Of a DNA stretch of 20,361 nucleotides, positions 5,114 to 12,709 are shown one piece after another. The translations under genes and the position numbers were made by a program. The stretch is taken from positions 1 through 20,361 of IMG/VR virus record IMGVR_UViG_3300025137_000401; one strand, written 5' to 3'. Each line of letters starts with the position of its first letter. Position 1 is the first letter of the stretch. Below the pieces are notes generated by a model. The model ran no database searches. It saw nothing but the letters and a program-made list of their open reading frames with translations, and had not been told where the DNA came from. This DNA comes from a virus.

Positions 5114-5497
5114 ATGAAACTACCTAAACATATAAGAATCGGAGCATTTAAAATTGAGTTAGTCTGCCTACCTCATAACTTAATGTATGAAGTTGGTGAA
5201 GCACAAGGCACATTCATTATCAAGCCACCCTATCAAATCTTTTTAGATAAAGAAATGGTTGAACGTGGTGGTGCTGACGCAATCAATGTAGTACTGCATG
5301 AACTAATGCACGTTGGTTATTATCAATACCATTTAAAAGATAAAGAAGAAGAGACAATCGTTAATTCATTCGGTAACTTTATGACTGAACTATTATGTCA
5401 TACAGAGTTAGGTGATTGGATTAACTACGAGAAAGATAGAGAGAGGAATACAAGTGGAAGAATACCTGTTCGTATACGGAACACTAAAAAGAAATGA
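5114..5497 (+). CDS. HExxH zinc metallopeptidase-like protein
   Basis: Residues 58-70 (NVVLHELMHVGYY) contain HELMH at 62-66: two His as metal ligands and the catalytic Glu. The acidic patch EEE at 78-80, about 14 residues on, could provide the third ligand, as in gluzincin-type minimal peptidases. The 127-residue size matches the small one-domain peptidases often found in phages, without the helix-turn-helix of full ImmA/IrrE proteins. No signal peptide, so it would act in the cytoplasm, perhaps on a host or phage protein; the substrate is unknown. The ribosome site is weak (GGTAAG). The last 44 bases overlap the next gene. Confidence 0.65.
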   Translation: MKLPKHIRIGAFKIELVCLPHNLMYEVGEAQGTFIIKPPYQIFLDKEMVERGGADAINVVLHELMHVGYYQYHLKDKEEETIVNSFGNFMTELLCHTELGDWINYEKDRERNTSGRIPVRIRNTKKK

Positions 5498-5867
5498 AAG
5501 ACTGCACGACTTACTAAGATCCCAAGAGTTTATAGATACTGCTACAACAGTAGACGCAAACTTTAACATGGGGGATTTAAGTAACGCATACCCTATAGTA
5601 TTTAGAAGCAATGAAGATGCTGACACATTCAAGTACAAGATAAGGGGCGAGGTTTTTAAACTGACAAGCCCTGGGGTGTATCATTACATTGATCGAATGG
5701 AAAAGGGTGCGGCATATAAGATGGTTGACACACTAGTCAGACTAAGTAATAATAAACAGATGATAGTAAAGATGTATGTGATGGATGATCTACCATACAA
5801 CCCTAGCTATCTGACTAAGGATAATATTAAATCCAAAAAGAATATACTCGAATGGAGTAATCAATAG
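5454..5867 (+). CDS. gamma-glutamylcyclotransferase-like (AIG2/GGCT) protein, GTG start
   Basis: The N-terminus LFVYGTLKRNERLHDLL carries the YGTL loop of the GGCT/AIG2 family, and IDRMEKGAAY (79-88) matches the D-x-x-E segment whose Glu (E83) is the general acid/base in GGACT-type members. These enzymes release 5-oxoproline from gamma-glutamyl amines or peptides. The start is GTG at 5454, seven bases after GAGAGG (5441-5446); an ATG at 5412 would add 14 residues lacking family similarity and has no ribosome site. Length (137) fits one domain. It overlaps the metallopeptidase gene by 44 bases. A functional tie with the amidoligase upstream is chemically plausible but unproven. Confidence 0.75.
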   Translation: MEEYLFVYGTLKRNERLHDLLRSQEFIDTATTVDANFNMGDLSNAYPIVFRSNEDADTFKYKIRGEVFKLTSPGVYHYIDRMEKGAAYKMVDTLVRLSNNKQMIVKMYVMDDLPYNPSYLTKDNIKSKKNILEWSNQ

Positions 5868-9501: not shown

Positions 9502-10605
9502 ATGTCACAGCACGCAGTTCTTAAACCAGTTCCGTCTCAGAAACCAAAGAATGGTCTGCAATGTAAAATTGCTTTCGTCTTTGACTTCCCTACGAATGAT
9601 GAAGCCAGACTAGGCAAAATTATGACAGGTTCTGCTGGTCGAATGTTCAATCAGCTAGTCGAGATATTAGACATAGGTGTGGAGAACTGCTTGCTAACAT
9701 ACGCAATCTCAACCAAGCCTGCTCAAGAAAACCCAGCACATTTCTTTCACAACCGCGCAGATTATAAAGCGCAGTGTAAGACGACAGACTGGCGTAGTAA
9801 ATATTCTGTGAGTGGGTTTGGATATCTTAAAGAAGATAAAGAATCTGACGTAGAGAGATTGGCAAACGAGCTTAATGCTGCGCAACCTAATATCATTATT
9901 GCTATGGGTAGCTTAGCGTTATGGGCGCTGACAGGACTAGACAAAGTAGGTACTTACAGGGGAACCATATTGAATGCAACAACTCTAAGTGAGAGCATCA
10001 AAGTACTTCCTACGTATAGTCCTAGTGCCGTAGTTAGAAACTATGACTTCAGACCTATAGTACTTGCGGATATAAAGAAAGCAATACTAGAATCTGAATC
10101 AAAAGAAATAAAAATAATAGAAAGAGAGTTATGGATTGAACCAACTATCGAAGATCTTCAAAAGTTTGAAGACAAATTTATACAAAGGGGGAACAGTGAT
10201 GTACCTCTTAGCTTTGACATCGAGACCGCTTCAGGTGACATTACTTGCATTGGCTTTGCTCCTAGTGATAGGGTTGCTCTTGTAATACCTTTCAGAGATG
10301 AGAGACAAAAGCTTAGAAACTATTGGACTGCTTACGGAGACGAACTCAAAGCGTGGGATTGGATTAAGAAAATACTAGAGGACGATAAGATAACTAAGGT
10401 AGCACAGAATCAAACGTATGATGTCTCGTGGTTACAATATAAAAAGGGAATACGTGTGGCAGGTGTGGTACATGATACCATGCACGCACAACATTCCCTT
10501 CAGCCTGAGCAACAAAAAGGACTGGGGTATTTAGGCTCCATCTATACTAACGAGGGTGCTTGGAAAACTATGGCTAAGTTTTCAAAGAGTACTAGGAAAG
10601 AATGA
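9502..10605 (+). CDS. UDG-like domain fused to the first part of a DNA polymerase I exonuclease domain
   Basis: Residues ~20-195 follow the uracil-DNA glycosylase (family 4/5-like) pattern: a GKIMTGSAGRMFNQLVEIL block (38-56), NIIIAMGSLALWALTG (130-145) and LPTYSPSAVVR (169-179), where active enzymes have a His-Pro-Ser motif. The usual GE-x-PG loop is replaced by VFDFP, so glycosylase activity is doubtful. Residues ~233-350 are the start of a DEDDy proofreading domain: Exo I FDIET (238-242), Exo II NQTYD (303-307), then HDTMHAQHSL and LGYLGSIYT. Exo III is absent: the chain stops at residue 367 and the missing motif begins the gene at 11165. Only a weak ribosome site precedes ATG 9502. The two gene products probably assemble into one proofreading polymerase. 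Confidence 0.75.
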   Translation: MSQHAVLKPVPSQKPKNGLQCKIAFVFDFPTNDEARLGKIMTGSAGRMFNQLVEILDIGVENCLLTYAISTKPAQENPAHFFHNRADYKAQCKTTDWRSKYSVSGFGYLKEDKESDVERLANELNAAQPNIIIAMGSLALWALTGLDKVGTYRGTILNATTLSESIKVLPTYSPSAVVRNYDFRPIVLADIKKAILESESKEIKIIERELWIEPTIEDLQKFEDKFIQRGNSDVPLSFDIETASGDITCIGFAPSDRVALVIPFRDERQKLRNYWTAYGDELKAWDWIKKILEDDKITKVAQNQTYDVSWLQYKKGIRVAGVVHDTMHAQHSLQPEQQKGLGYLGSIYTNEGAWKTMAKFSKSTRKE

Positions 10606-10614
10606 TTAATATAA

Positions 10615-10899
10615 ATGAAACGAGCTCCATACTTTTCGGAGTTACATATACCACATGAACTGGTAACTATTGAAAAGGAAGTGCGGCTGTGGAGGGCTGT
10701 TATAGATCAAGCTTTGATAGATTTTATGACTGATAATATTGCAAGAGAATTTCAAGCAAACAAAGAGAAGGCAAAGATTTGGTTGCGTGGTAAGTCAGAA
10801 GACTTTAGTGTCGTCTGTGAGTACGCAGAACTAAATGCCAAAGAAGTGAGGGACGAGATATATAAAATAGTAGGAGGAGAGAATGAGCTCTACAGATAA
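10615..10899 (+). CDS. small phage protein inserted between polymerase parts, 94 aa
   Basis: A soluble helical protein with the pattern VRLWRAVIDQALIDF (23-37), AKIWLRGKSEDFSVVCEYAEL (53-73) and VRDEIYKIV. Small proteins of this style recur in phage genomes and look like compact helical DNA-binding or regulatory proteins, but I know of no assigned function. The ribosome site before ATG 10615 is weak (GGAAAG, far upstream). It starts nine bases after the first polymerase part and overlaps the DUF3310 gene by 17 bases. It has no endonuclease motif (no HNH, GIY-YIG or LAGLIDADG), so it does not explain the split as a homing insertion. Confidence 0.6.
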   Translation: MKRAPYFSELHIPHELVTIEKEVRLWRAVIDQALIDFMTDNIAREFQANKEKAKIWLRGKSEDFSVVCEYAELNAKEVRDEIYKIVGGENELYR

Positions 10900-11143
10900 A
10901 TACACAAGAGACAAATACAAATACGATAACTATAAATACACTAGCTTAGACAAGCAGATTGGTGGTGAGCATTATAAAAATTTTGTAATACAACCTGCAC
11001 AGTTTACTAATCAAAACAGATTACCTTTTGCTGAAGGCAATGCCATCAAGTATATATGTAGGCATAACCTTAAGGGAGGCAAGCAAGACTTAGAAAAAGC
11101 TAAACACTATATCGATATGATAATAGAACGTGACTATCAATAA
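10883..11143 (+). CDS. DUF3310 family protein
   Basis: Residues 25-85 match the DUF3310 pattern of phage proteins: QIGGEHYKNFVIQPAQF, then LPFAEGNAIKYICRHNLKGGKQDLEKAKHYIDMII. Members are widespread in T7-like and other phages and are sometimes labelled nucleotide kinase, without a proven reaction. The first ~20 residues are a polar Tyr/Lys/Asp repeat (DKYTRDKYKYDNYKY) that is probably disordered. AGGAGGAG lies just before ATG 10883. It sits between the two polymerase parts, in keeping with a role near replication or nucleotide supply. Confidence 0.8.
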   Translation: MSSTDKYTRDKYKYDNYKYTSLDKQIGGEHYKNFVIQPAQFTNQNRLPFAEGNAIKYICRHNLKGGKQDLEKAKHYIDMIIERDYQ

Positions 11144-11164
11144 TTAACATGGGAGACAAAAGCA

Positions 11165-12709
11165 ATGGCGAGGATAATCAAGAACGTAGATATACAAAAT
11201 ATTGAACTCGATTCTGAACAAACTCTTTGGACGTATTGTGCATTAGACTGCGCCGTTACTCTAGAGATTTGGCAGAAGATTAAAAAAGAACTAGACGAAG
11301 AAACCACCAAGACATATCAGTTTGAATTAGATAGTCTCAAGCCTGCGATGGCTATGATGCTACGAGGATTGCGTGTGGACAATGATAAGGTTGTGAAAAT
11401 GCGTGCCCCTCTCAAAGACAAGAGGCTCAAGCTAGAGCGCATGCTTAATCTATTTGCCAATGCGGTGACAGGTAAGGATCTAAATCATGCTTCGCCAAAA
11501 CAGTTGATGGATTTATTCTATACACAACTGAACCTACCTCCCGTTATTGCATACAAAAAAGGTAAGCAAAAAGTTTCTACAGATAGAGAAGCACTAGAAC
11601 ATTTACGTTCAGAGTATCCTAGGGCAAGACCTTTCTGTAATACTATCATGGCACTACGTGACATTGATAAACAACTTAACGTATTAGAAACTACTAGGGA
11701 TAACGACAACAGGATACGTTGTTCTTATAATGTAGCAGGCACTGAGACAGGCAGATGGTCATCATCAGAATCTCCTTGGGGTACAGGTACTAACTTACAA
11801 AACATTACGAAAGACTTGCGTGCAATCTTCGTACCTGATCCAGGTATGACTATGTTCTACGCTGACCTTGAACAGGCTGAGTCTCGTGTGGTTGCATACC
11901 TTACAGGTGATGAAGGTTACATCAATGCATGTGAGAGTGGTGACCTACATACTACAGTTGTTAAAATGGTATGGCCCAATATGGGTTGGAGTGGGGACGC
12001 GAAACAAGAGCGTGCTCTAGCCGACAAACCTTTCTACTTACACTATACCTTCAGAGATATATGTAAGCGAGCAGGTCATGGTACTAACTATGGATTGTCT
12101 GCTACCTCATTAGGTAGGCATTTAAAGATTAAGATATCACATGCCACAAGATTTCAATTACTATACTACGGAGGTGTGATACCTGTTGACTCAGTTGCTC
12201 GTTGGCATAAGCAAGATCCGCGTGGTGGCTTTGATGAGTTAGCTTCTTATGGTGTAGAGTTTGGCGATAAGATGAAGTATTTACGTATTCAAGGGGCATT
12301 CCCTGGGATACAGACATGGCACAGTGATGTGCTTAAACAGTTAGAAAAGGAGGGGGCACTGACAACACCACTAGGTAGACGCAGACAATTTTGGGGAAGA
12401 CTCAATGATGCATCTACGTTGCGTGAAGCCATTGCCTATGTACCCCAGTCTACTATCGGAGACCTATTAAACATGGGACTCTATCGTGTGTGGAGAGAAC
12501 TCGAAGGTAGAGGGGTACAGGTTCTTGGGCAAGTTCACGATGCTATCTTAGGTCAAGTGCCTACTGATAGGGTTGATGAACTTATGCCCGAGGTCATAAA
12601 TTGTATGACTAATTCTATTAAGATGGGAGACCGTGAATTAATTATTCCTTCTGTTGCTGAGGTAGGTAACACATGGAAGGATCTAAAAGTATGGGAGAAA
12701 CATGACTAG
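11165..12709 (+). CDS. polA: DNA polymerase I, Exo III motif plus polymerase domain
   Basis: The chain opens with LWTYCALDCAVTLEIW (21-36), whose YCALD is the Exo III (Y-x3-D) motif missing from the gene at 9502. The family A palm and fingers follow: motif A YADLEQAESRVVAYL (232-246, catalytic D234), motif B RDICKRAGHGTNYG (297-310) and motif C QVHDAILG (456-463, catalytic D459). ETGRWSSSESP (194-204) and LQNI (211-214) are the usual template-grip blocks. Two departures are seen: His305 sits where E. coli Pol I has Phe762, and motif C is HDA instead of HDE. The start is supported by GGGAGA about ten bases upstream. It overlaps the helicase gene by eight bases. It should replicate the phage genome together with the product at 9502. 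Confidence 0.9.
   Translation: MARIIKNVDIQNIELDSEQTLWTYCALDCAVTLEIWQKIKKELDEETTKTYQFELDSLKPAMAMMLRGLRVDNDKVVKMRAPLKDKRLKLERMLNLFANAVTGKDLNHASPKQLMDLFYTQLNLPPVIAYKKGKQKVSTDREALEHLRSEYPRARPFCNTIMALRDIDKQLNVLETTRDNDNRIRCSYNVAGTETGRWSSSESPWGTGTNLQNITKDLRAIFVPDPGMTMFYADLEQAESRVVAYLTGDEGYINACESGDLHTTVVKMVWPNMGWSGDAKQERALADKPFYLHYTFRDICKRAGHGTNYGLSATSLGRHLKIKISHATRFQLLYYGGVIPVDSVARWHKQDPRGGFDELASYGVEFGDKMKYLRIQGAFPGIQTWHSDVLKQLEKEGALTTPLGRRRQFWGRLNDASTLREAIAYVPQSTIGDLLNMGLYRVWRELEGRGVQVLGQVHDAILGQVPTDRVDELMPEVINCMTNSIKMGDRELIIPSVAEVGNTWKDLKVWEKHD

Follow-up and report, generated by a model that had tools for sequence, protein, structure and literature searches.

A phage family A DNA polymerase gene split inside its proofreading exonuclease domain in a clade of aquatic phages

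Can a phage DNA polymerase remain one enzyme when its gene is broken inside the proofreading domain? The question is raised by a 20,361-base stretch of viral DNA (the window; the complete IMG/VR record IMGVR_UViG_3300025137_000401) that contains a phage replication module, and by an earlier note which had read its polymerase as divided within that domain. Four genes follow one another on the + strand, on which the features of this locus given below also lie: i) chain 1 (9502..10605; 367 aa), with a UDG-like domain and the Exo I/Exo II part of the 3'-5' exonuclease; ii) a gene for a 94-aa all-helical protein (10615..10899; AlphaFold model and comparison of relatives); iii) a DUF3310 protein gene (10883..11143; Pfam); and iv) chain 2 (11165..12709; 514 aa), with the Exo III helix and the whole family A polymerase domain. 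The placing of FDIET and NQTYD on the first gene and of YCALD at the start of the next polymerase gene was confirmed, the two intervening ORFs are exactly as the note had claimed, and the 559 bp separating chain 1 from chain 2, described there as almost all coding, are indeed so (529 bp). On the PHROG_17 profile, chain 1 covers positions 479-798 (E 2.5e-37) and chain 2 positions 802-1239 (E 1.5e-65); because these spans are consecutive and non-overlapping, the two chains together miss almost nothing of the polymerase. The PHROG_17-type UDG–exonuclease–PolA polymerase of the window is present as two proteins that in sum make one polymerase.

Chain 1 opens with an N-terminal UDG superfamily domain that was absent from the earlier note (aa 21-181, 9562..10044; Pfam PF03167, E 7.5e-10). 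Its motifs are degenerate: where an active family 4-like UDG has GEAPG and HP(S/A), the window has FDFPT and SPS. Motif comparison found both signatures lost throughout the marine clade; the isolated freshwater Caulobacter phage Kuura retains HPS, and its relative L180 retains GEAPG and HPA. The UDG-like domain of the marine clade is probably no longer a glycosylase. Chain 1 also matches positions 9-129 of the 173-position Pfam DNA_pol_A_exo1 model and carries Exo I, FDIET (10213..10227), and Exo II, NQTYD (10408..10422), which recur as D.ET and QN..YD respectively in 88 of 88 split loci. The chain ends in a conserved C-terminal tail, KTMAKFSKSTRKE (10564..10602).

Chain 2 is preceded by a Shine-Dalgarno-like GGGAG (11151..11155) 9 nt upstream of its start in the sequence, and a GGAG-like site lies ahead of the chain 2 start codon in nearly all relatives whose junctions were inspected. 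By alignment, its N-terminal head, MARIIKNVDIQNIELDSEQTL (11165..11227), is novel, being missing in intact relatives. It leads into Exo III, YCALD (11234..11248; chain 2 residues 24-28), found as Y...D in 88/88 loci, and then, in the alignment of the 88 loci, into polymerase motif A, DLEQAESR (11864..11887), the motif B region, KRAGHGTNYG (12065..12094), and motif C, QVHDA (12530..12544). With motifs A, B and C and a match to Pfam PF00476 DNA_pol_A above the cut-off (E 5.6e-43; 147.8 bits, cut-off 34.3), chain 2 is a family A DNA polymerase. In two relatives, moreover, the final 24 positions (150-173) of DNA_pol_A_exo1 match chain 2 (E 2.7e-4 and 3.5e-4). The motif set of a DEDDy 3'-5' exonuclease (Exo I D.E, Exo II D, Exo III Y...D) is therefore complete, with Exo III on chain 2.

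This arrangement is not peculiar to the window. Searches of viral contigs yielded considerably more than a hundred loci carrying the two halves, and the identical break was present in the 88 non-redundant loci (counting the window and the isolate Kuura) that were left once identical and nested copies had been dropped. At the junctions inspected, the chain 1 stop and the chain 2 start occupy a constant position, and Exo I–III as well as polymerase motifs A–C are all kept in 88/88 loci. Kuura (OQ067476), which belongs to the same clade as the window, has its polymerase divided into UDG-exo and ExoIII-pol parts at an identical alignment column, its two proteins being 37% and 40% identical to those of the window. 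It is a plaque-forming freshwater isolate whose assembly was checked by BamHI digest, and the accessible text of its description makes no mention of a polymerase split (PMC9959647); in its annotation, Kuura_029 (chain 1) is a hypothetical protein and Kuura_026 is the DNA polymerase. Since the identical break occurs in 88 loci including this isolate, chance or assembly error is ruled out, and the gene fission that the earlier note had read from a single locus is real.

Alignment with relatives, a check which that note had proposed, showed that intact polymerases do exist, outside the split clade: single-chain UDG-exo-pol relatives include MW202489, Microcystis phage Mel-JY34, L154-L165, L167, L169 and L175. 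In a tree of 49 joined sequences, rooted at the midpoint, the exo-split loci (including Kuura and L180) fall on one side of a branch with support of 100/99, so that the split has a single-clade origin, and with such a root the change presumably ran from intact to split; the kinship of L005, an intact phage on a long branch, is unsure. Compared with the intact relatives, the split proteins have lost nothing at the junction, and chain 2 has gained ~20 residues at its N terminus (MARIIKN...). A prophage or cellular source was set aside, as the scan of genome contigs yielded one 24% match only.

Both halves are under purifying selection. In sufficiently diverged pairs, pairwise dN/dS was 0.09-0.18 for chain 1 and 0.04-0.07 for chain 2; the role of chain 1 may thus be less strict, as it evolves two to three times faster than chain 2. 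Selection at the protein level extends to the new termini: dN/dS was 0.14 over the 13-14 codons that end chain 1 and 0.15 over the 20-21 codons that open chain 2. As befits a split enzyme, then, both halves are selected (dN/dS) and no part of the fold is lost (alignment). Furthermore, in the records of ten relatives (37-61 kb, including the complete Kuura genome) the split polymerase was the sole family A polymerase found, and no family B polymerase was found in the same records.

The genes in the gap, on the other hand, change from lineage to lineage. Across the split loci the gap measures 506-1053 bp and holds differing real genes: its second gene encodes DUF3310 in some lineages and DUF6378 in sister lineages (Pfam), both genes in the Kuura gap are unrelated to the window's pair, and the 1,053-bp gap of L180 contains an RNase H gene (L180:3157-3678). 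The DUF3310 gene of the window is 84% identical in DNA to that of L118 (L118:6354-6611) and 77% to that of L089, while the flanking polymerase genes rank in reverse (72-76% to L118, 90-93% to L089); because the two sets of identities contradict each other, recombination of the DUF3310 gene between lineages is suggested. The 94-aa gene is present in the marine clade and absent from Kuura and L180. Its product, all-helical in an AlphaFold model (pLDDT 90.6), has no Pfam match and is weakly similar to uncharacterised proteins of other phages. Among the hits listed by a PDB structure search with this model none fell below E 2, which does not make the fold a new one. It was considered and rejected as a third subunit, as the gene is absent from Kuura and L180 and did not turn up in the stretches of intact relatives that were retrieved, and as the 94-aa part is of low confidence in the read-through model described below; the rejection is less firm for the marine clade. 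Neither the 94-aa gene nor the DUF3310 gene belongs to an intron; both are exchangeable cargo.

Two readings would do away with a divided enzyme altogether. One joins the halves, via intron RNA, a split intein or ribosomal bypass. Introns are known in phage polymerase genes, and one was considered for the split polymerase of OM43 phages (PMC10580990). Rfam, however, gave no intron match across this region of the window, even with E<=1 allowed, and none at the gathering score in 12 relatives; a gap that varies in length and gene content also speaks against ribosomal bypass; the chain 1 tail is selected as protein up to its stop and the chain 2 head from its start; and chain 2 has a start codon of its own, with a GGAG-like site ahead of it. 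Tail and head together come to ~34 residues, which is below intein size and too short for a split intein. Joining of the halves is thus highly improbable and, Pfam having found no homing endonuclease gene in the gap at the window's break, the earlier note's view that no group I intron, intein or homing endonuclease is present stands. The other reading, an assembly or sequencing artefact or a broken gene in decay, could appeal to the window being a metagenomic contig, but it is already refuted by recurrence: the same structure is found in ~88 loci across many samples, among them an isolate with a BamHI-checked assembly (PMC9959647), and purifying selection acts on both halves. Its probability is practically nil.

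How the two chains might fit together was approached through L013, a locus in which both halves are in one frame, so that the gap could be read through and the whole folded as one joined chain (AlphaFold) from an alignment of the halves plus intact relatives. The model (mean pLDDT 77.8, pTM 0.72) is mostly confident over residues 1-355 (chain 1) and 548-1060 (chain 2), and not over the gap. It superimposes on Klenow 1d8y (Z 31.4; rmsd 4.2 over 554 of 601 residues, from 324 to 928) and shows the two chains jointly holding the full Klenow-like fold. As it was built from joined chains, with intact relatives among the aligned sequences, the docking in the model is not independent proof of affinity. 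In the alignment the break comes after Exo II and before the last exonuclease helix. The claim of a break inside the exonuclease fold therefore holds but is refined: as the break lies in the loop ahead of the last helix, chain 1 keeps most of the fold and chain 2 adds the Exo III helix.

These features are best accounted for by an old and stable gene fission in the surface loop that precedes the last exonuclease helix. The two cistrons would be translated separately, each from its own start site, and chain 1 (UDG-like domain plus Exo I/II) would bind chain 2 (thumb, palm and fingers behind the Exo III helix) non-covalently, so that the first helix of chain 2 completes the proofreading site. 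The site would comprise D239 and E241 (Exo I) and the Exo II aspartate of chain 1, and Y24 and D28 of chain 2. The exonuclease motifs are divided between the chains, as the earlier note's proposal of a site built from both demands; mutual binding and exonuclease activity are what this division leads us to expect. Taken whole (fission, non-covalent assembly of two chains with a shared proofreading site, and cargo genes), this explanation is very probably correct. Alternatively, chain 2 could replicate alone without proofreading and chain 1 could have a UDG-like or DNA-binding role, with no joint exonuclease, as the full polymerase domain on chain 2 and the two- to threefold faster evolution of chain 1 might suggest. 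Yet none of the 88 loci has lost the Tyr and Asp of Exo III from chain 2, or Exo I/II from chain 1, which is hard to expect unless they serve one shared site, and the UDG motifs are degenerate in the clade, so that the exonuclease motifs better explain why chain 1 is retained. We consider independent roles for the two chains decidedly unlikely.

Gene fission recurs in the UDG-exo-pol family, as breaks elsewhere in the protein also exist. Vibrio phage VS-ABTNL-3 (L003), L168, L174 and L179 belong to the same family and are broken inside the palm, which requires at least two changes on the tree; the gaps of L003, L174 and L179 contain different genes (90 aa, 184 aa, methyltransferase-like) and that of L168 is only ~130 bp. 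L171 (688-3383) and L177 (4001-6666) are broken at the UDG/exo boundary, and between the pieces lies a 113-aa HNH_3 gene that looks like a recent homing-endonuclease insertion. The palm breaks, and the break of phage MEP401 within its polymerase domain (PMC10580990), run counter to the earlier note's remark that most split polymerases break between domains. As for the fission in the window, its original cause may have been insertion of a mobile gene; by analogy, a homing-endonuclease-like gene that was later lost or replaced is plausible.

Other phage enzymes are likewise made as two chains. In Aeromonas phages 25 and 44RR the replicative polymerase is also encoded by two genes, gp43A and gp43B, with other sequence between them, and the two chains of phage 25 co-purify and have polymerase activity (reviewed in PMC2988022); that polymerase is of family B, whereas the window's is of family A, and the phage 25 gap has a seg homing endonuclease gene. 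NrdA of phage Aeh1, an essential enzyme split by insertion of mobE, likewise regains full activity from its two chains (reviewed in PMC2988022), but it is another enzyme and the inserted gene is a homing endonuclease. In the marine OM43 phages MEP401 and MEP402, a family A polymerase likewise occupies two ORFs, which a small ORF of unknown nature separates; there the break is within the polymerase domain, leaving the whole exonuclease and the N-terminal PolA part on one chain, and the authors suspected an intron (PMC10580990). Searches of a literature mostly outside subscription journals found no earlier description of a break through the exonuclease site. Split phage enzymes that work are already known; a cut through the exonuclease site, kept in ~90 phages, appears to be undescribed.

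The locus would represent a DEDDy proofreading active site divided by nature over two proteins, a state fixed in a diverse clade of aquatic phages, and proofreading could then be toggled by supplying or omitting one chain. The fission might even be exploited: if the proofreading site forms only on docking of chain 1, an exonuclease-proficient two-chain form could coexist with exonuclease-free chain 2 in a ratio that tunes fidelity or strand displacement, though we regard this as unlikely. As one family also contains unbroken polymerases and two or more further break sites, one of them with an HNH endonuclease gene still in place, the process of fission can be compared directly. Moreover, chain 1 is easily labelled 'hypothetical', as in Kuura, and such phages could wrongly be counted among those whose polymerase does not proofread.

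Elsewhere in the window, the genes at 363-1721, 1712-2689 and 5430-5867 are Amidoligase_2-like, class II glutamine amidotransferase-like and gamma-glutamyl cyclotransferase genes respectively, which suggests a peptide or gamma-glutamyl modification system.
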